The notes beneath the pieces were generated by a model, which ran no database searches, was not told the origin of the DNA, and was given only the letters and a program-made list of their open reading frames with translations. From the NCBI RefSeq assembly GCF_013426205.1, contig NC_089422.1, positions 5,704,001 through 5,768,000 on the forward strand: a DNA stretch of 64,000 nt, written 5' to 3'. The translations under genes and the position numbers were made by a program. How positions within the stretch are numbered: position 1 is the stretch's first letter; the number at the start of each line of letters is the position of its first letter. Source of the DNA: Metarhizium brunneum. Taxonomy: Eukaryota; Ascomycota; Sordariomycetes; Hypocreales; Clavicipitaceae. This document shows positions 44,845 through 58,197 of the stretch, piece by piece.

Positions 44845-46772
44845 TCAAAATGCGTACTCTTCCACATGCAAATAGATACCCTGTGCGCCTGTCCCCTTGT
44901 GTACCGCCCGCTCATCACTTAATTTGCCAACACAGTTTCGCGTCCTCGCCACGATTTCCTTTCCTCCGCATACCACCACTGCCGTCTCCCCCCATGCTTG
45001 TTCAACAGGCTCACGGAGTAGAGCCTCAATATCTGGTCTGGACGCGTACTCGCGCACCATGTCCACAGTAGATGTGCTGTTGCGAGACGTGCTCGAGCAT
45101 GAGTTTCTACTCCTGGATCGTAGACCGTCTTCCACTGATTTCCCAGAGTACGAGGCGGCTGCCTTTTCTTTTATTGAGCCTTCTGTTGAGCCGTCCTTGA
45201 CGTCCCGTCGAAGCTGAACAAGCGGTACTCCGGAATCCGTTTCTGAATAGCCGCCTGTGATGGCAATGTGCAATCGTACCATAATGCCCTTCTCCTGCGC
45301 GCTCCTGGCAGCATCTCTAGCCCTTTCCACGTAGTATTCCATCTCCTCCGCCGTTCTTGCCACCAGTGTCATCTCCAATCTCCGCACGCATGACGTGTTT
45401 TCTGAGTAGGCAACATACTCCATGATGGGCACTGTGAAGCTTGCCCCCGTTGATGCTCCGATCAGAACAAGAGTCTCAAATGTCTCCCATCTGGTTGTTA
45501 CTCCAAATGGCCCCAATACATATCCAGTCAGGGTCTTGGCCGGGTTCTTGACAGCAAAATTATGGATGCGTTTCGAAAATCCCCCGTGTGACCGGATAAT
45601 GAGCTGTATACTGTTGCAACAGCACGAGCCCTTGATTTGATGCGCACACGCAATGGTGTATGGGTGGGATTCCAAAAAGCCGAGCCGAGGAATCCACAGG
45701 TAAATGTGTTGTCCCGCATGCCACTTGAAATGAACATCCTTGATGGTCAGCACGGTGATTGAGTCGCCTATGGCTCGTGAGGACATGCTATGTCCTAATC
45801 GCCTCATCCCTTCACAAGCCGACGTGCTTGGCTTCCATCGGGTATTCTGCCAGGCTGTCAATGCCCCCCTCGCCGCTCTATCGAACGCCAGGAACGACAC
45901 CGACATCCACAGCAAGTACCGTGCGTCGGCCGGAATGTGAAAACCGAGGAGCACCAGCATGGCGACAGATGATAGCACGTGTTGTATCAGCCAAATTTCG
46001 TACACCATTCTCCGGATGGGCACAAACCCGACAACCACATTGAAGAGCAGTACTCCCCATGCGCCAAGTCCGTATCTGACTAGAGGCATAATGGACAATT
46101 CATACTCAAGAAAGTCTGCCCGTACCCATTCGGTCCAAAAATGCCAGCCGTGGACTGTCGCGGTGACAAACATGGTTCGCGCAACCCAACGGTGAAGCCA
46201 ATTCAGTCGCTCGTGGCTACTCCCAATCAAAAAGCCCACTATATTGAACTTCATGGAGAGGAGGAAGATAAAGGGCAGCTGCATTATGGATACCCAAGCG
46301 TTTCGATAGCCGATGCGTTCCCAGAAATACGCGTCGTTCTTGACAACATTCCAGGACATGAAGTAGATAATCATGGCCCAGTAGCACAGAAGGACCATGA
46401 TCCTTCCCAACGGCGGCGGCGTAGCCCATCGAAAACCGACTCTCGATACGTACAATTGCGGATGGCTCATCTCGCGGGTGATGGCGGTTGCGGTAGCCCA
46501 CGCCTGGCTGACATGATTCCCTGGTCTCGTGGCATGTTCTATCGAGGTTTCCTTGCAAGCCTTTAACCTGTTTCGAAGACTTAGAATGCATATCGCAGAG
46601 AAACTTTTTATCACGCACTGTACCTTTGTTTACCTGTATATATCTCTATGCCTCGAAGCGCGGTCAAGCCGCCAACCACCACGGCAATAATATACCAGTA
46701 GTCCCGGGCAAAGGCGTAGTTGTAGTCCATGCCTAAGCCCGCATCATGCATGTGCATATCTCCCATATCCAT
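44845..46772 (-). CDS. ferric/cupric reductase, FRE family
   Basis: Two exons, 46772-46624 and 46567-44845, with a 56-nt intron (GTACAG...AAACAG, phase 2) give 623 aa. The first exon is Met/His-rich (MDMGDMHMHDAG), a possible external metal-binding site, followed by a transmembrane helix. The bis-heme pattern is complete: His175 and His189 in one helix, His246 and His260 in the next, each pair 14 residues apart. FAD binding is at HPYTIA (about 351-356), and the NADPH domain begins at LIGASTGASF, ending with VVVCGGKEIV. A Ser-rich insertion lies in the NADPH domain. Plasma-membrane enzymes of this family reduce Fe(III) or Cu(II) before uptake. It is head-to-head with a BIM1-like copper protein. 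Confidence 0.9.
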
Positions 46773-49712: not shown

Positions 49713-52700
49713 ATGGCCGCCCTCACCAATGCTGCCGAGCTTGATTCAAAGAGCCTGTCTCCTCGCTTTCGCGTTGGTGGCCAGCTTTCAATCGGTGGCA
49801 TAACCTTCAGACCCAATCTTCGCATGTCAAATACAGATGCGAGTATCTTAATCACGCTGAGTGTAATCTCAGTTGCGACATTTTCTCTTTATGTCTTTCG
49901 CAATCGACTCCAGCGTCTCCTTCCTCGATGGCTTCAGCCTTTTGCCAGAGAAGAAGGCCATGCGTCAAATAAACGCAAGGCTTGGACACATTGGACTCTA
50001 ATTCTTGCTTTAATCTCTATTTCTGGCTTTATCCTGTCGGTTGTACCGATTTGCCTCGCCCCGAATGAGCGCCGGGGCATTCTCGATATTGTTCCCTGGA
50101 TGTCTATTCTATTCATGACTGCTTTGGACCGGCCCACTAGCACACCTCGGATTTTGCTCTTGCAGTATTTTCTCGTCTTGAGCTCCGGTATGGGTATTTA
50201 TTCCGCCCAATTCTTGGACCACCATCTTCGGTCCATCGATCCATTTCGCGTTGCAAGACTGGCTCTCTCTTTGTTCGGTATCGTTTCGATTGGCAGCATG
50301 CCACTTCGAAACCCAGCTTGGGATGCTGAAGACATTGCAAACCCGAAGCTCCCCCCATCTCATCATGTTCGAAGCCCGGAAGATAACCTCACACTCTTCA
50401 CTTTCTGGGCTATGACGTGGGTATACCCGCTTGCCCGGCTCTGTCGGAAGAAAGAAATCACCGTCGAAGATGTGTGGCAACTACCACATGATTTCCAACA
50501 TACACGCCTCTATCTAGCCTTCCGCGAACTCCAGGGAAAGCTTCTCCCCTGCCTGATCGAAGCAAATGGTCTCGATTTATCCATTGCGACTACTCTTGCT
50601 ATCGTTGAGAAACTCGCTGAGGTATCCAACATTCGCCTCACCAGCCGGCTTTACAGTGCGCTGGACAATGGTAACCCAACCGAAGCCTACTTTTGGTGCG
50701 CGGTAATGCTATGTGTGGATTTTATGCGACAGATCTCCAAAACGACATCCTCTTGGTACTCTCGCAAGGCCTACGAAAGATCTAGGGGCGAGACCTTTAT
50801 TGCGCTATTTGGCAAACTCCTTACCCGGGCCGTCCCAGGATCAGATGTCACCGAAAAGGGTCCAGAAGAAGACAGTGTCGGAACACTGACAAGGCCAAAT
50901 AATACCTTACGAAGAGGATGGCTTAGCTGCTGCTGTGGACGCAAACACAGGGTCAAGTCGACTCCTACACAAGCAACCCCTGCATCAAATGCAAAGGTCG
51001 TCAATCTTGTTCGGGGAGATACCTACGAGATTTCTCAACGCTTCTGGGATTTTCCAAAGCTCATGTCGCAGCCAATCAAGGTTATTGTTACAATTTACTA
51101 TCTCATCGACATCATGGGTTGGCCGTCCTGTGTCGGCCTTGGACTCATGATCCTCTTCCTGACCAGCAACTCACTCCTCGTTCGCAAGGTCGTTCAACTG
51201 GAACGTTCCAGGACCGCGCACTCTGACAAGCGCGCACAAGCTGTGGCCCACTTTGTAGAAGCTAGTAGACCTTTGAAGCTCAACGGCTGGACATCTTCTT
51301 GGAGTGCTAGAATCTTCAAGTTTCGAACCATGGAGATGCTGAAGCGACTGCAGATTGCACGGGTAATTGCAGCGATATCCACCACAAATGTCGCTGGAGG
51401 CTCGGCTTACCCTTTTGCCAGCATTTGCTTATACACCCTGATTCTCCGACAAGGTCTTCCAAACGACGTTATTTGGCCGTCTTTGCAGCTCTTCAACCAA
51501 CTGGAGGCGAGTCTCAAAGAAGCGTTCGATCTTATCACTGCTTATTGGAAGGCAGTAATTCCTGTCGAACGTGTCAACAAATACATGGAAGAACCAGATC
51601 GGGACGAAGATTCTCTTGGCATTACAGACGCTAGTGATATCGAATTTCATGGCGCCTCATTCGCTTGGCCCTCCACCAATCACTTGGTTCTTTCTCAGCT
51701 CAATCTCAAATTTGGCAAAGGACTCACGATTATCCGAGGAAAAGTTGGCTCCGGCAAATCTAGCCTCCTGCTTGCAGCCTTGAACGAAATGGAGTTGCAT
51801 GGTGGCGATCTTCTTCGACCAGATGAACCGGTTGGTTATGCACAACAGCTTCCATGGCTACAGAATAAGACGATTCGAGAGAACATCGTCTTTCATCATG
51901 GTTTCGATGCCGCCCGATACCGACAAGTCCTGCATGCTTGTGCGCTAGGACCTGACCTTGCAGCTTTTCCCGATGGTGATCTTACCAAGTTGGAGGAAGG
52001 CGGTGTTGGGTTATCTGGGGGCCAGAAAGCCAGAGTTGCTTTGGCCAGAGCCGTATACAGTCCATGCAGAATTCTTCTTTTGGATGATCCTCTTGCTCCT
52101 TTGGATCACGACACTGCGAGCAATATTGTACGACGATTTTTACAGGGCCCTCTGGCCAGGGAACGCACTATTGTGATGGTGACGCATCGCGATGACCTGG
52201 TTCTTCGCATTGCTAATCAAGTCATTGATATGGATGATGGGACCGCTAGGAGGTTATCTCAATCGGAAATTAAAGATGAACTTGAGCATCCCTATCATGC
52301 TACATCTCAAGATACCATAGTGGAAGAACTTGAACCGACCCATGAAACCCACGAAGAGGAGGAGGAGGATTTGCAGGAGGCACCGGAAGAGCCTTCAGAG
52401 ACTGGAAGCGTGCCCCTTACAGTCTATTTGAACTATATGAGGGCTGGTGGATTGTATATGTGGGCATTCCTAGCACTGTTCTACGGAATCTCCAGATACT
52501 GCGATGTCTCTGAAGCGTCATTGCTTGAGTCGTGGGGAAATGAAACGGCGAAAGATCGTGTGATATCTACAAGAGGCTATTGGAGTCTTCCAAATCCCCA
52601 AAAATTTCCCCAAATCTGGCTCGCTGTGTTTGGCGGTCTTGCACTCGGACAGACCATATCATACGGTATCGCCCAACTGCTGCTAGCCAAGATCTCTATC

Positions 52701-54116
52701 GATGCAGCTCAAGGCATTTTCAAAGCTGCCATCGGCCGAGTGAGCAAAGCCACCTTCAGATATCACGACACCACACCCACCGGACAGCTTAAAAACCGAC
52801 TCGTTTCTGATATGGGTATGGTTGATGGTGGCATTTTGGCACCACTGGAAGGCTTCGTCTATAATTTCATTGCTCTAGTTTTGAGCATCGTCGGTATTGC
52901 AACACACCAGCCAATGCTTCTCATTATTCTCGGCGCCGTCGCTGTCCTATTCGTTTACTTTTTCAGAATCTACGTTCCAATTTCACGCAGCTTGCGACGC
53001 ATGGAAATGCGATATCTCACGCCCATCATTGCCAATATTGGCGTTATGCAGGACGGCCTTGTCACTATTAGAGCGCTTCGCGTAGAAGGTCGTTTCCAGG
53101 ACCGGCACTTGGATGCAGTGGATGACTTCCAGAAGCAGGATCACTTTTTCTGGAGCATGGCTTTCTGGCTCGACTTTCGGCTCAGTATATCGTCTGCCTG
53201 CACTCGTGCTGCCCTGATTATTTTCATGATTTGGCGCGGCACTCCAGCAAGCGCGATTGGATTTGTGTTGACGCAGACGTCAATTTCTATGGCATCTATT
53301 CAACAGCTTTGCGAGAAATTTGCCCAGCTTCAACTAGACGCAGTATCGCTGGAGCGTGTTGGCATGCTTGACAAGATCCCAGAGGAGCCAAATGGCGATG
53401 AGGAGCCACCTGCAGATTGGCCTAGGCCATGTGACGACGTCAAATTTGAGTCCATGTCCTTCAAATACGCCGAGGGACTGCCCAATGTCCTCAAAAAGGT
53501 CACTTTTGAGATACCGGGAGGATCTACGTGCGCGGTGCTAGGTAGAACTGGGTCAGGAAAGTCCACCATAGCCAATGCTCTGCTGGTGACAGAGACGGCA
53601 TCCGAAGGCACGGTAAAAATTGGCGGCATGGATCTGGCCAAGGTCAACCGCACTGCTCTTCGAAACCGTGTCACATTCATTCAGCAAGACCCTACACTGT
53701 TCCCGGGAACTCTGCGTGATAATATCGACCCAGAGGGTAAATTTTCCGATGAGGAGTGCGAAAATGCGATTCAAAATGTTCTTGGGAAGGAATGGGGGTT
53801 AACATCGCAAATCGACGCCGGTGGGAAAAATCTTAGCCAAGGACAGCGGCAGTTGGTTGGTATCGGACGCGCAGTTTTGCGAAAGAGTGGACTAGTTATC
53901 CTAGACGAAGCGACAGCATCAATCGATCGCGGGACTGCGGCCACAGTCCAAAAAGTCCTACGAGAGGGGCTGTCCAAGAGTACTGTTATCACCATTGCTC
54001 ACAGACTCGAGGCTGTCGAGGACGCAAATTGGTGTCTCCGCCTTGAAAAGGGCCAGGTATTGGACTGTGGTCCCGCAAAGGACCTGGGCAAGAAGGCAAA
54101 AGAGGAGGAATCATGA
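49713..54116 (+). CDS. ABC-C (MRP-type) full transporter
   Basis: Intronless ORF of 1467 aa, near the usual size for fungal ABC-C proteins, starting at ATG in good context (CAACATGG). N-terminal transmembrane helices (TMD0-like, about 40-200) precede two TMD-NBD halves. NBD1 has Walker A GKVGSGKS (676-683), signature LSGGQ (767-771) and Walker B ILLLDDPLAPLD (about 785). NBD2 has GRTGSGKST (about 1277-1285), signature LSQGQ (about 1374-1378) and Walker B VILDEATASID (about 1395). In the first site the usual catalytic Glu after Walker B is Asp, the degenerate form common in the ABC-C subfamily. A Glu-rich linker joins the halves. It exports conjugates, drugs or metabolites across the plasma or vacuolar membrane. 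Confidence 0.95.
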   Translation: MAALTNAAELDSKSLSPRFRVGGQLSIGGITFRPNLRMSNTDASILITLSVISVATFSLYVFRNRLQRLLPRWLQPFAREEGHASNKRKAWTHWTLILALISISGFILSVVPICLAPNERRGILDIVPWMSILFMTALDRPTSTPRILLLQYFLVLSSGMGIYSAQFLDHHLRSIDPFRVARLALSLFGIVSIGSMPLRNPAWDAEDIANPKLPPSHHVRSPEDNLTLFTFWAMTWVYPLARLCRKKEITVEDVWQLPHDFQHTRLYLAFRELQGKLLPCLIEANGLDLSIATTLAIVEKLAEVSNIRLTSRLYSALDNGNPTEAYFWCAVMLCVDFMRQISKTTSSWYSRKAYERSRGETFIALFGKLLTRAVPGSDVTEKGPEEDSVGTLTRPNNTLRRGWLSCCCGRKHRVKSTPTQATPASNAKVVNLVRGDTYEISQRFWDFPKLMSQPIKVIVTIYYLIDIMGWPSCVGLGLMILFLTSNSLLVRKVVQLERSRTAHSDKRAQAVAHFVEASRPLKLNGWTSSWSARIFKFRTMEMLKRLQIARVIAAISTTNVAGGSAYPFASICLYTLILRQGLPNDVIWPSLQLFNQLEASLKEAFDLITAYWKAVIPVERVNKYMEEPDRDEDSLGITDASDIEFHGASFAWPSTNHLVLSQLNLKFGKGLTIIRGKVGSGKSSLLLAALNEMELHGGDLLRPDEPVGYAQQLPWLQNKTIRENIVFHHGFDAARYRQVLHACALGPDLAAFPDGDLTKLEEGGVGLSGGQKARVALARAVYSPCRILLLDDPLAPLDHDTASNIVRRFLQGPLARERTIVMVTHRDDLVLRIANQVIDMDDGTARRLSQSEIKDELEHPYHATSQDTIVEELEPTHETHEEEEEDLQEAPEEPSETGSVPLTVYLNYMRAGGLYMWAFLALFYGISRYCDVSEASLLESWGNETAKDRVISTRGYWSLPNPQKFPQIWLAVFGGLALGQTISYGIAQLLLAKISIDAAQGIFKAAIGRVSKATFRYHDTTPTGQLKNRLVSDMGMVDGGILAPLEGFVYNFIALVLSIVGIATHQPMLLIILGAVAVLFVYFFRIYVPISRSLRRMEMRYLTPIIANIGVMQDGLVTIRALRVEGRFQDRHLDAVDDFQKQDHFFWSMAFWLDFRLSISSACTRAALIIFMIWRGTPASAIGFVLTQTSISMASIQQLCEKFAQLQLDAVSLERVGMLDKIPEEPNGDEEPPADWPRPCDDVKFESMSFKYAEGLPNVLKKVTFEIPGGSTCAVLGRTGSGKSTIANALLVTETASEGTVKIGGMDLAKVNRTALRNRVTFIQQDPTLFPGTLRDNIDPEGKFSDEECENAIQNVLGKEWGLTSQIDAGGKNLSQGQRQLVGIGRAVLRKSGLVILDEATASIDRGTAATVQKVLREGLSKSTVITIAHRLEAVEDANWCLRLEKGQVLDCGPAKDLGKKAKEEES

Positions 54117-55044
54117 TCATAAAGGTATACCAAACAGAAAGACTGCTACACCTATTAAACGGCGATGGGCATCTGGTAGCTATCGACACATGTACTTATA
54201 GACAGGCGGCTTTTGGCCAAGGATTGGATGGCCATTGGTAGTAGGTACAGTTGATGGTACCAAGAATGATAGAGATATGGCGTGACGCTTGCGATGATTT
54301 CGACAAAGGGGGTTGTTGGTGTCTGGATACCGAAATAGCTCCCATCTCATATGTATTGCATCAATTGAAACGTCAAAATACGGAAGGTGTGAATGGTGTC
54401 CCAAAACAACTAGCCTAAAATATGAATAATATAAACTTAACACTCTTAAAATTGAGAAAACGCCAGGCTGCTAAGGCCACTAAATCAGGCGAAAAGTGTC
54501 GCTCTTTCCGCAGGCATAATCAGTCCGGGGAGGGGGAGTCCAGCGACAAGAGGTCGCGGGGCAGGTACAAGGGTTGACATGTCTAGACTTCAATGTTCCC
54601 GCGCACAGATCAGATTGCACGTGCCAGGGGAGCATGCAGCACGGCCTAGGTACCTAGGTACCTAGGTAAGTACTTGATGGTGGGATGGAGGGGCATAGTG
54701 CAAGTACCCCGCTGAATCGCGCGGCTGTGACACACGAAAATGGATGGTAATGGAGATGCCGATTGATTAAGTTATGTCTGGTACATACATAAAGTACCAA
54801 GGTACCTGGGTAGGCTCTCTATCCGGCCTGGCTACCGGCGCGGACCCGAACCTAAGGGCCCGCCGGGACCTACCAGTACCAATGACCCCTCCGGGAAAAC
54901 CCTATGCCGTAATCCCCCTCAACCGCTGCTCTGACGCATCTTTCGAGCACCGCAGCTTTAAAACTTTGTGCGGATCGCGTCTTTTTTTCTCCTCTGCAAT
55001 CTCAACGGCGGCACCCACGACAGCCAATTTTGATCCTGCGCAAC
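54117..55044. other. intergenic
   Basis: Lies between the co-directional ABC transporter and adenylosuccinate synthetase genes. It contains the CCTAGGTA tandem repeat at 54645-54668 and further GGTACCT words near 54798. No gene is recognised. Confidence 0.55.
54645..54668. repeat. three tandem CCTAGGTA units
   Basis: Three perfect 8-bp units, each containing the palindrome CCTAGG and together forming a self-complementary block. Similar GGTACCTAGG words occur elsewhere in the window (34677-34686), so this may be a genome-wide motif rather than a local operator. Confidence 0.7.
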
Positions 55045-58000
55045 ATGACCATCACTGTCATTCTTGGGGCCCAATGGGGTATGTTTCTCTCCCTTGCCTG
55101 GAATACGTCCTTCCTCCGCACCCGACCGACATCGGTTCGATATCATTATACTGACCAGGACTTCTACAGGCGACGAAGGCGTGAGTACTCGGGGAGAACC
55201 CAATACAGCCAATTACACCCAGGAACTAACGATACTGCGTACTCAGAAGGGCAAGTTGGTTGATGGACAGTGCCAGGAGGCGCAACTCTGTGCTCGAGCC
55301 GCGGTAAGCACAACGCAGGCAGAATCCGGTCGACCAAACGGCTTCCACCGATGCTTAAAACATCCCCAAACGACAAATTTGCGCCGAAACATCTGCTAAT
55401 GAACGTCAAGGGTGGGGCTAACGCTGGGCATCTCGTGCGGTTGGTTGAACGCTTTCTGTCGATCGATATCTATACATGCATACTGTGATGCTAATGGGTG
55501 CAAAAGTGTAAACGGAGTTTCGTATAGGTGAGAACCAGCAAACGTGGAAGGACGGGGCGGTTGCTAACATAGAGGCAGCTTTCACCTCTTGCCCTCTGGG
55601 CTGATTAACCCAAAATGGTTTGTCAAGGCTAATGATCGTTCAAGCTGGCAACGGCGAGGCTGACAAGTACCATAGCATGAACTTCATCGGTTCGGGCGTA
55701 GTATTCCACGTGTTAGTCTTCATATAATCCTCCACCCCTAACTCGACTACCACATCGGAATCTTGTTGATGTCTCGCCTGGCTCGCGCCTCTCAACCGAA
55801 CATGCCAAGAAGACTGACTCTGTCCTCCAGCCCAAGTTTCTTCAGCGAGCTCCGGGAGCTCGAGGAAAAGGGCCTGACCGCGGTGCATGACCGGATCCTT
55901 GTTTCTGACAGGGTCAATGTCCTCTTGGACCTGCACATCGCAGTGGATGGTCTCGAGGAAAGGGAACTCGGGGGTTCGTTTCATAGTTTCCGACATTGTC
56001 GTTGAGGAACAGCAGCTAACGTCTACCCCAGACGCAGCTATCGGAACGACAAGACGCGGTACGCTACCCCCAGGACTCCATGCCGGATTGTCCTTTTCTG
56101 TTTCTGTCACATCATTGCAAGAATTCCCAAATCTCAATAGCGGGGACAATCTCGGTCATCGTCGTGCTAGCGACGCTATTGAAGCAACGAGTTCTAACGT
56201 CCGCCATAGGCATTGGTCCCTGCTATCAGACAAGCAGAGCGGTAAGAGATAGTCACGACAAGGGAGCGGACTGCGCGCTAACTTTTCCAGCGAACTGGCA
56301 TCAAATTGACCGACGTCTTCCACCCCGACCTTTTCGAGCAGAAGGTGAGGCGCTTAGCCGATGGCTATCAAAAGCGCTTCGGAGAACTGTTCGAATACGA
56401 CATCAAAGCCGAGCTTGCTCGTTTCGACGAGTACAGGGAGACGCTAAAGAAGTACGTCGTGGACGGCGTGTCCTTCATGAGATCCGCACAGCAGAGCGAC
56501 ACGAAAATTGTGATCGAAGGCGCAAACGTAAGGTTCTCATCCTAAGATCAAACGAATAGTACTGACACATTGGTGGAACGAGCACCGTGCCCGTGGTCCC
56601 CAGTCCTCTTTCCTAGTCCCGCAAGGATTCTTAGCTCGGGGCGGAACATAGTGCTCGTCTGAGCAATCACTTTGTTGGCGGAATCTTACAAGGGTCTGCG
56701 CTGTAACAAACTGTGTACTATGTTCACGCCTCGGCAGGATTCGGGAGTCATACGGAAACCTGGCTTCTACCCATCTACTGGTTGGTTATCGAGCGTGGTC
56801 AGTGGAGTTAATGACAATTTCACGTGAGGATGGCGCCCTAGAATCAACTCGGAGCAGGCCCAGTCATGGCGTCTCGAGGTTCAAGCCAAACTGTGCTCAG
56901 AAAGCCCCTCTTGAGATGATTCCGGGGCTTCATTTTCACGTTCAACCTCTGCGCCACGTGCGATGCTGGTAGATCGGCATCAGTCCAATTTCCTATGAAG
57001 GCAAGGGGTTCTGGGACCTGGCGCTTGTGCTTGTTCCCAATTGAACAGGCACTGATGCTAGATGTTGATTATGGCTCTTACCCAGTAAGTTTCCATCAAC
57101 CTGGCCCTTCAGTTTGCACTAGTACTCATGATTAACTACAGTTCGTCACTTCCTCAAGTACTACGCTTGCTGGTATTATTGGTGGACTTACACTGAACCC
57201 AAAGAATATCACAGAGACGGTTGGAGTGGTCAAGGCTTGTATGTCGATTGCTCCAAGGCTGTAATTCACTGCTGACTGGCAACAGATACCACCCGTGTCG
57301 GAGCGGGGGCTTTCAAGACTGAAGATACCGAAGAGTGCGTCCGAATTACCATCTTGAAGCGACTCTGAAGCTGAATCATGACCTCAGGATTGGCACCAAG
57401 CTCCAGGAGATTGGACGCGAATGGGTGAGGCTATAAGTGCCCTGGAGGTTTCGAGCTTTTACCGCTGACAAGACTTAGGGAACGTCGACTGGCCGCAGAC
57501 GCCGGTGTGGATGGTGAGTTTTCATCACGGCTCCTAGTTGCTGACAAACTTGCTGACCGTTCTCAGGCTCGGTGCGCACAACCTCAAAACCTTGAGTAGT
57601 AGGGAACACAACTGACAAACACAAACAGACCTTGTTGTTGTCAACTACAGTAACTCGATCAACTACTACACCAGCCTGAATCTCACGAAGGTAGACATTG
57701 CCCATGGCATGCTTGTGACTCGCGTCAAAACGCTCTAACACTCTGCAGCTCGACGTTTTGGATACTTTCGAAACGATCAAGATTGCCATAGCTTACAAGA
57801 TCGACGGAGAGGTCAGTGATGCCAACGAGATCATGATGGATTCTGGAGACGCTAACCGTTTGGACAGGAACTGGACTCTTACCCTGCAGATCTTGACATT
57901 TTGAACCGAGCTGAGGTGGTTTACCACGAGATGCCAGGCTGGCAAAAGCCGACCACTAACGCGAGGACCTACTACGATCTCCCCAAGGCGGCCCGCGATT

Positions 58001-58197
58001 ACGTTGAGGTGAGCATATTCACCTGGGCTAGCATAACGAACAGTTGCGCTGACCACCAGCAGTACATCGAAAAGTTTGTCGGAGTCAAGGTAGGTACCTG
58101 GTCGCGCATACTAACCTGCACCGCAATTGCTAAAGTTGAGCAGATCAAGTACATCGGCACTGGTCCCGACCGTGAGGCCATGATCCAGCGCTCCTGA
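55045..58197 (+). CDS. adenylosuccinate synthetase, 22 exons
   Basis: Predicted 423 aa, the normal family length. Exon ends: 55045-55078, 55170-55180, 55247-55303, 55411-55439, 55507-55527, 55579-55617, 55676-55711, 55831-55973, 56032-56058, 56210-56241, 56291-56527, 57049-57084, 57142-57238, 57286-57334, 57388-57424, 57479-57513, 57567-57571, 57629-57690, 57749-57811, 57868-58008, 58063-58089, 58144-58197. Every intron is GT-AG and every junction restores both frame and family sequence. The enzyme joins IMP and aspartate using GTP in AMP synthesis. Asp13 (QWGDEGKGK) and His41 (NAGH), the catalytic pair, are present, as are GTT and RRRRCGW. However, the GTT-G-R-G-I-G-P stretch has Arg131 for Gly, and the usual TK(A)xR lysine is Ser141. 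A paralogue or altered enzyme is therefore possible. Exon 21 may start at 58060 (CAGCAG acceptor). Confidence 0.85.
56528..57048 (+). other. 521-nt intron of the adenylosuccinate synthetase gene
   Basis: Intron 11 begins GTAAGG and ends GAACAG, joining EGAN to ALMLD, which are contiguous in the family. It is about nine times longer than the median of its neighbours. I see no coding frame, repeat or mobile-element signature in it. Confidence 0.75.

Follow-up and report, generated by a model that had tools for sequence, protein, structure and literature searches.

An old, near-saturating intron set in an adenylosuccinate synthetase gene of Metarhizium brunneum and its likely passage between fungi

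The closest parallel to the gene described here is found in the alpha-amylase genes that Basidiomycetes acquired horizontally. As far as the accessible part of that account describes them, these genes contain up to 22 introns each (about 62 nt on average), far above the genome average, and the donors of the introns were not identifiable (PMC3584928). The adenylosuccinate synthetase (ADSS) gene of M. brunneum resembles them in both respects. It differs in that the amylase donor was an intronless bacterial gene and the hosts were intron-rich, whereas ADSS is a fungal gene of the housekeeping type in an intron-poor group, and in that its intron positions are fixed between old paralogues. A second comparison is offered by the introner-like elements of fungi, which, in the portions of the reports available to us (PMC4457414, PMC9860276), share with ADSS the occurrence of many introns in a gene of a filamentous ascomycete; the ADSS introns differ in having no sequence in common with each other or with the rest of the genome. 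For scale, the available part of a survey of fungal introns gives a mean of 0.47 introns per kb for Pezizomycotina orthologues and 0.98 for their reconstructed ancestor, reconstructs the fungal ancestor at 7.6 per kb, and reports more introns in Basidiomycetes than in Pezizomycotina (PMC8476143). Our literature search found nothing on the structure of the M. brunneum gene; most subscription journals lay outside that search, so a prior publication is possible.

The window analysed here is a 64-kb stretch of contig C1 (G000:C1:5704001-5768000) of the 37.8-Mb, seven-contig genome of M. brunneum (Hypocreales, Clavicipitaceae). Within it the ADSS gene lies on the plus strand at 55045..58197, and its spliced model, from the ATG at 55045 to the TGA at 58197, comprises 423 codons in 22 exons with no inner stop. 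The exons occupy positions 55045-55078, 55170-55180, 55247-55303, 55411-55439, 55507-55527, 55579-55617, 55676-55711 and 55831-55973 (exons 1 to 8), 56032-56058, 56210-56241, 56291-56527, 57049-57084, 57142-57238, 57286-57334 and 57388-57424 (exons 9 to 15), and 57479-57513, 57567-57571, 57629-57690, 57749-57811, 57868-58008, 58063-58089 and 58144-58197 (exons 16 to 22). They range from 5 to 237 nt, the longest corresponding to 79 codons and the shortest being the 5-nt microexon 17 (57567..57571), which is the same in the second copy described below. All 21 introns are of the GT-AG type, with lengths of 47-521 nt and a median of 57 nt; 16 of them measure 47-67 nt, and the five longer ones are 91, 107, 119, 151 and 521 nt. 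Intron 11 (56528..57048), the longest, is a single copy in the genome and measures 99 nt in the second copy of the gene. Ten introns are in phase 0, five in phase 1 and six in phase 2, and 18 of the 21 have a CTRAY motif no more than 40 nt from the 3' splice site. The introns are not regularly spaced, the spread of exon lengths being like that of random placement (a proportion of 0.49 of 10,000 simulations at or below the observed value). Retention is predicted to cause an early stop for 18 of the 21; the remaining three, introns 2 (55181..55246, 66 nt), 20 (58009..58062, 54 nt) and 21 (58090..58143, 54 nt), are open and in frame.

With 21 introns in 1,272 coding nucleotides, the density is 16.5 per kb, far above the Pezizomycotina mean of 0.47 per kb in the accessible part of the survey (PMC8476143), much as the earlier note on this DNA had estimated. 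That note had also read a 423-codon enzyme divided into 22 exons by 21 GT-AG introns, which the spliced model and a homologue bridging its junctions bear out, and had correctly described most introns as 47-67 nt long, several with a visible CTRAY branch site, and the adjacent ABC transporter gene as intronless: the latter is a single uninterrupted frame of 1,467 codons at 49713-54116. Between the two genes, at 54640-54680, units resembling TACCTAGG are repeated in a short tandem array. Upstream of the transporter gene are a ferric reductase gene (44845-46614) and, close to it, a gene for a BIM1-like copper-acquisition protein (PF20238; 47881-48390); this stretch is possibly a metal-uptake neighbourhood. 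An Rfam scan of the 64-kb window gave no match at the gathering score.

ADSS catalyses the conversion of IMP into adenylosuccinate, with which the route from IMP to AMP begins. A draft of the C1 protein, one residue short at junction 4 and one too long at junction 20, matched solved ADSS chains over at least residues 3-418, which align with residues 19-436 of 5i33 (E 2.9e-152). In a 97% identical homologue, P0103, the PF00709 model was matched at positions 1-416 of its 416 (E 4.5e-168). The stretches GDEGKGK, NAGH, LTKLD and TGR-RRCG, which we take to be conserved ADSS motifs, are present both in the alignment with 5i33 and in the final protein. The gene product is therefore a member of the adenylosuccinate synthetase (PurA/ADE12) family and is predicted, from its sequence, to be an enzyme. 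It resembles other fungal members (PF00709; Cryptococcus neoformans 5i33/5i34) over the full length of the protein and differs from them in its gene, in which 22 exons are used for 423 codons.

How well supported are the exon junctions? P0103 is an intact 423-residue homologue from a 1,626-nt contig, identical to the C1 protein at 412 of 423 residues (97%) without a gap, and it was one of six homologues tested against the junctions, all 21 of which it bridges. So do P0092, from a 1,490-nt contig, and P0078, which is less telling in that its own longest contig measures 3,943 nt. P0196 is partial and bridges 15 of the 21, the first six falling outside it, and P0003 and P0007 bridge all 21 junctions of the second ADSS gene. 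Contigs of some 1.6 kb have no room for the introns and so look like cDNA, the alternative being an intronless copy. Two variants of the model were dropped: one in which intron 4 was of the GC-AG type and intron 20 was displaced, since P0103 and P0125 read LVRVNG and VEYIEK at these places and so fit GT-AG introns, and one with exon 4 a base shorter, which breaks the frame. In the deposited models P0125 and P0126 of M. brunneum and P0129 of M. anisopliae, exon 12 (57049..57084, 36 nt), which encodes 12 residues, is missing and the 5-nt exon is misread; the resulting 12-residue deletion at 222-234 has its two ends at introns 11 and 12.

The genome contains a second ADSS gene, on contig C4 (exons between 1942 and 4507 of locus L008), and it too has 21 introns. 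We refer to the C1 and C4 copies as types A and B. Their products are identical at 307 of 422 residues (73%), and 260 of 422 third codon positions differ. Nevertheless, 19 of the 21 C1 introns have the same position and phase in the C4 gene (chance of at least 19 shared positions, 7e-38). Intron 12 is shifted by 1 nt between the copies, intron 9 (56059..56209, 151 nt) is present in the C1 copy only, and one C4 intron, at coding position 533, is without a C1 partner. Of the 21 C4 introns, 13 have a CTRAY motif no more than 40 nt from their 3' splice site. No intron-poor third ADSS copy was found in the genome, either with the PF00709 profile (seven matches, all in the two ADSS loci) or with the Sordaria protein (nine matches, eight in these loci); the ninth, at C1:6296373-6296513, was 40% identical over 47 residues (E 3e-5) and was taken as a chance match. 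Three further purine-pathway genes of this genome served as a control: their best matches within one reading frame covered 258 positions for purB (one stop read through), 255 for IMPDH and 103 for GMP synthetase, as against 79 codons for the longest ADSS exon. The C4 gene is flanked by two degenerate direct repeats of about 500 bp each, 5.25 kb apart and 71-92% identical in their aligned pieces (L008:938-1432 and L008:6217-6678, or G000:C4 at about 2344437-2344939 and 2349716-2350177), which were found nowhere else in the genome; an AT-rich stretch lies inside each end of this bracket. The repeats may mark how the C4 copy arrived.

Is this layout confined to Metarhizium? We read other species through the annotation errors in 199 homologous proteins, taking insertions of at least 5 residues as unspliced introns and counting an insertion as at a site when it fell within 1.5 residues of a C1 intron position or of the one C4 position that lacks a C1 partner. 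Among 81 insertions, 77 were at such sites, as compared with a mean of 12.4 and a maximum of 25 in 2,000 random draws; the counts are not independent, many rows being several annotations of one species. When the four Metarhizium insertions were set aside, the figure was 73 of 77. With clades assigned by nearest reference, clade A contributed 67 of 68 insertions at a site (110 proteins), clade B 2 of 2 (9 proteins), B2 1 of 2 (12), C 5 of 7 (41) and T 2 of 2 (19), making 10 at intron sites among the 81 proteins of B, B2, C and T; the basal Sordariales/Xylariales group showed no insertion traces in 8 proteins. Deletions with both ends at intron sites numbered 22 of 44 in clade A, 6 of 9 in C, 1 of 4 in T, and none of the single deletions in B and B2. 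Such traces touch 19 of the 21 intron positions in clade A and 20 of the 21 over all clades, introns 16 and 17 being only 5 coding bases apart and poorly told apart in placement. They include exon-skip or insertion traces in Nemania sp. FL0916 (introns 4 and 5), Thyridium and Phialemonium (8 and 9), Verticillium (9 and 10) and Venturia (17). The 120 matches of a C. neoformans query held three gap events of at least 5 residues, too few to use: two insertions, one lying 1.0 residue from the intron 19 position and the other 33 residues from any, and a deletion with one end at intron 4.

These traces in other species, like the gene model and the positions common to the C4 copy, are direct observations. 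The comparison of intron positions with orthologues that had been proposed in the earlier note thus recovers the same positions in other fungi, as read through proteins. The note had named beforehand, as the finding that would make the intron set ancestral rather than unusual, the same set in relatives, and this is largely what we see. The C1 intron layout is old rather than recent. Because there are few traces outside clade A and none in the eight basal proteins, the depth of the shared set in the fungal tree is uncertain.

How might these introns have arisen? The layout might be an artefact, the gene model being wrong or the gene a pseudogene in decay, as the divergence of the deposited P0125 and P0126 from the 22-exon model could suggest; but the 423-codon frame is intact and its splice sites are consensus, P0103 crosses every junction, and the alignment to solved ADSS spans its length, so that this explanation is hardly worth entertaining. 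A recent, lineage-specific burst of gain by introner-like elements, which a density of 16.5 introns per kb within an intron-poor group brings to mind, appears extremely improbable. In all pairwise comparisons among the 42 introns of both M. brunneum ADSS genes, the best score was 21, as against best scores of 20-32 in 20 shuffles, and the C4 introns show no likeness to those of C1; a search with the C1 ADSS DNA against the whole genome, which very short matches may escape, found the C4 exons and no intron copies elsewhere; and 19 of the 21 positions are common to the C4 paralogue. Massive intron gain, one of the two origins that the earlier note had offered, can therefore be kept, with the gain placed before the paralogues parted, whereas its suggestion that the spread was introner-like, visible as shared intron sequence, and with it a lineage-specific burst, finds no support. 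We infer that the gain took place in the ancestor of type A and type B ADSS; it would have been massive gain and not simple retention, because 16.5 introns per kb stands against about 1 per kb reconstructed for the Pezizomycotina ancestor in the available part of the survey (PMC8476143). The other origin offered, descent from an intron-rich donor, is very unlikely if the donor is taken to be distant, such as a basidiomycete. Basidiomycetes are richer in introns than Pezizomycotina in that same source (PMC8476143, as far as available), but at the protein level the C1 product is no closer to C. neoformans ADSS (56.6% identity; C4, 56.3%) than is Sordaria ADSS (57.9%), and it groups with other Sordariomycete rows (100/100), on a long branch. 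An outgroup tree places types A and B with types T and C in a 33-row clade (100/99) outside the Sordariales. What survives of the donor idea is that the gene may have come by horizontal transfer, its introns already in place, from a different fungus that has the same set.

Several observations bear on this last point. In a first tree, C1 ADSS fell in a 31-row clade (100/100) with Hypocreales, two Xylariales rows, Coniochaeta, Verticillium, Diaporthe, Thyridium, Phialemonium and Venturia, and C4 ADSS paired with M. robertsii and then Nemania diffusa; the Xylariales rows stand among Hypocreales in the ADSS trees. Core Hypocreales as one clade, a grouping picked once an earlier tree had been seen, received p 0.0335 in an AU test, and the bootstrap had not settled. 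The C1 protein is 98.3% identical to that of M. acridum (the closest named row), 96.7% to Xylariaceae sp. FL1651 and 96.2% to Nemania serpens; within the same clade, a Fusarium solani row and an F. oxysporum row are 91.0% identical and two Trichoderma 93.1%. For type B, M. brunneum and N. diffusa share 96.0%, and the corresponding values are 78-79% between Xylariales and Sordariales of the basal group and 90.1% between a Xylaria and Ustilaginoidea in clade C. We also compared retained-intron peptides of at least 8 residues with all 42 introns of the two M. brunneum genes. The M. brunneum intron at the peptide's own position gave the best fit in 37 of 66 events, or for 29 of the 50 peptides that are distinct. 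The figures are 36 of 57 in clade A and 1 of 9 in other clades; the 29 events without such a fit include all seven F. oxysporum intron-3 events, all seven placements at intron 16, and Venturia. The genera compared belong to different Hypocreales families, Nemania to the Xylariales and Venturia to the Dothideomycetes. The intron 2 peptide of M. brunneum stands about equally far from M. acridum, which it matches at 18 of 22 residues, and from F. lateritium, which it matches at 17 of 22. Translation of intron 20 gives 17 of 18 residues in common with Neonectria punicea, and that of intron 21 the same number with F. lateritium. Intron 9, absent at that position in the C4 copy, is matched by peptides of F. 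decemcellulare (19 of 23) and T. viride (27 of 37), and intron 19 by T. viride (13 of 17). According to the available text of Da Lage and colleagues, intron divergence is so fast that alignment fails already between two species of Phanerochaete (PMC3584928).

Because intron sequences are alike between families and the Xylariales copies are 96-97% identical to Metarhizium, a recent horizontal passage of the whole intron-loaded type-A gene between fungi is likely, if not proven, on this sequence comparison. Against it count the weak support from the trees, with clade A poorly resolved and the AU grouping chosen after a tree, the 29 peptide events without a best fit, and M. acridum as the closest named row. 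The alternative is strictly vertical inheritance of an ancient set, in which clade A would be slow-evolving and its introns constrained by splicing, regulation or retention peptides. This we regard as rather unlikely. Clade A is weakly resolved, and three of the best-matched introns (2, 20 and 21) are open and in frame in M. brunneum, as such constraint would have it; but introns 9 and 19 are matched as well although their retention leads to an early stop, the C4 introns are unlike those of C1, and the identity to the Xylariales copies exceeds that within Fusarium or Trichoderma in the same clade. Beyond the passage itself, we advance with slightly less than even confidence the wider proposal that an intron-saturated Sordariomycete ADSS lineage now moves between genera, families and orders intact, with its some 21 introns, and that in Metarhizium the ordinary housekeeping gene has given way entirely to types A and B. 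Starship elements carry a DUF3435 captain at one end. No such captain was found near ADSS: the 17 PF11917 matches in the genome all lie more than 1.5 Mb from either copy, the nearest being at 9.06 Mb on C1 and 0.79 Mb on C4. Relatives of the gene were not found among viral contigs.

Taken together, we consider it probable that C1 encodes a predicted working ADSS whose short spliceosomal introns are inherited, close to saturation and gained before the A/B split; a likely later spread of type A between fungi, introns included, belongs to the same reading. Under this explanation, introns would have been gained in the ancestor of the type A (C1) and type B (C4) paralogues; since the split, their positions would have been kept while their sequences drifted; and type A would later have passed between fungal lineages as genomic DNA. 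Every ADSS transcript would pass through 21 splicing events, and, because retention of 18 of the 21 introns is predicted to bring an early stop, ADSS output should depend on the quality of splicing. Errors in public ADSS models often recur at the same places, a point of importance wherever ADSS serves as a marker. The gene is also a natural test of intron gain and retention: its 16.5 introns per kb compare with a group average of 0.47, and intron positions are fixed at 19 of 21 between paralogues of just 73% identity. If the horizontal reading is true, its introns would serve as neutral clocks for dating the transfers of an essential enzyme between fungi.
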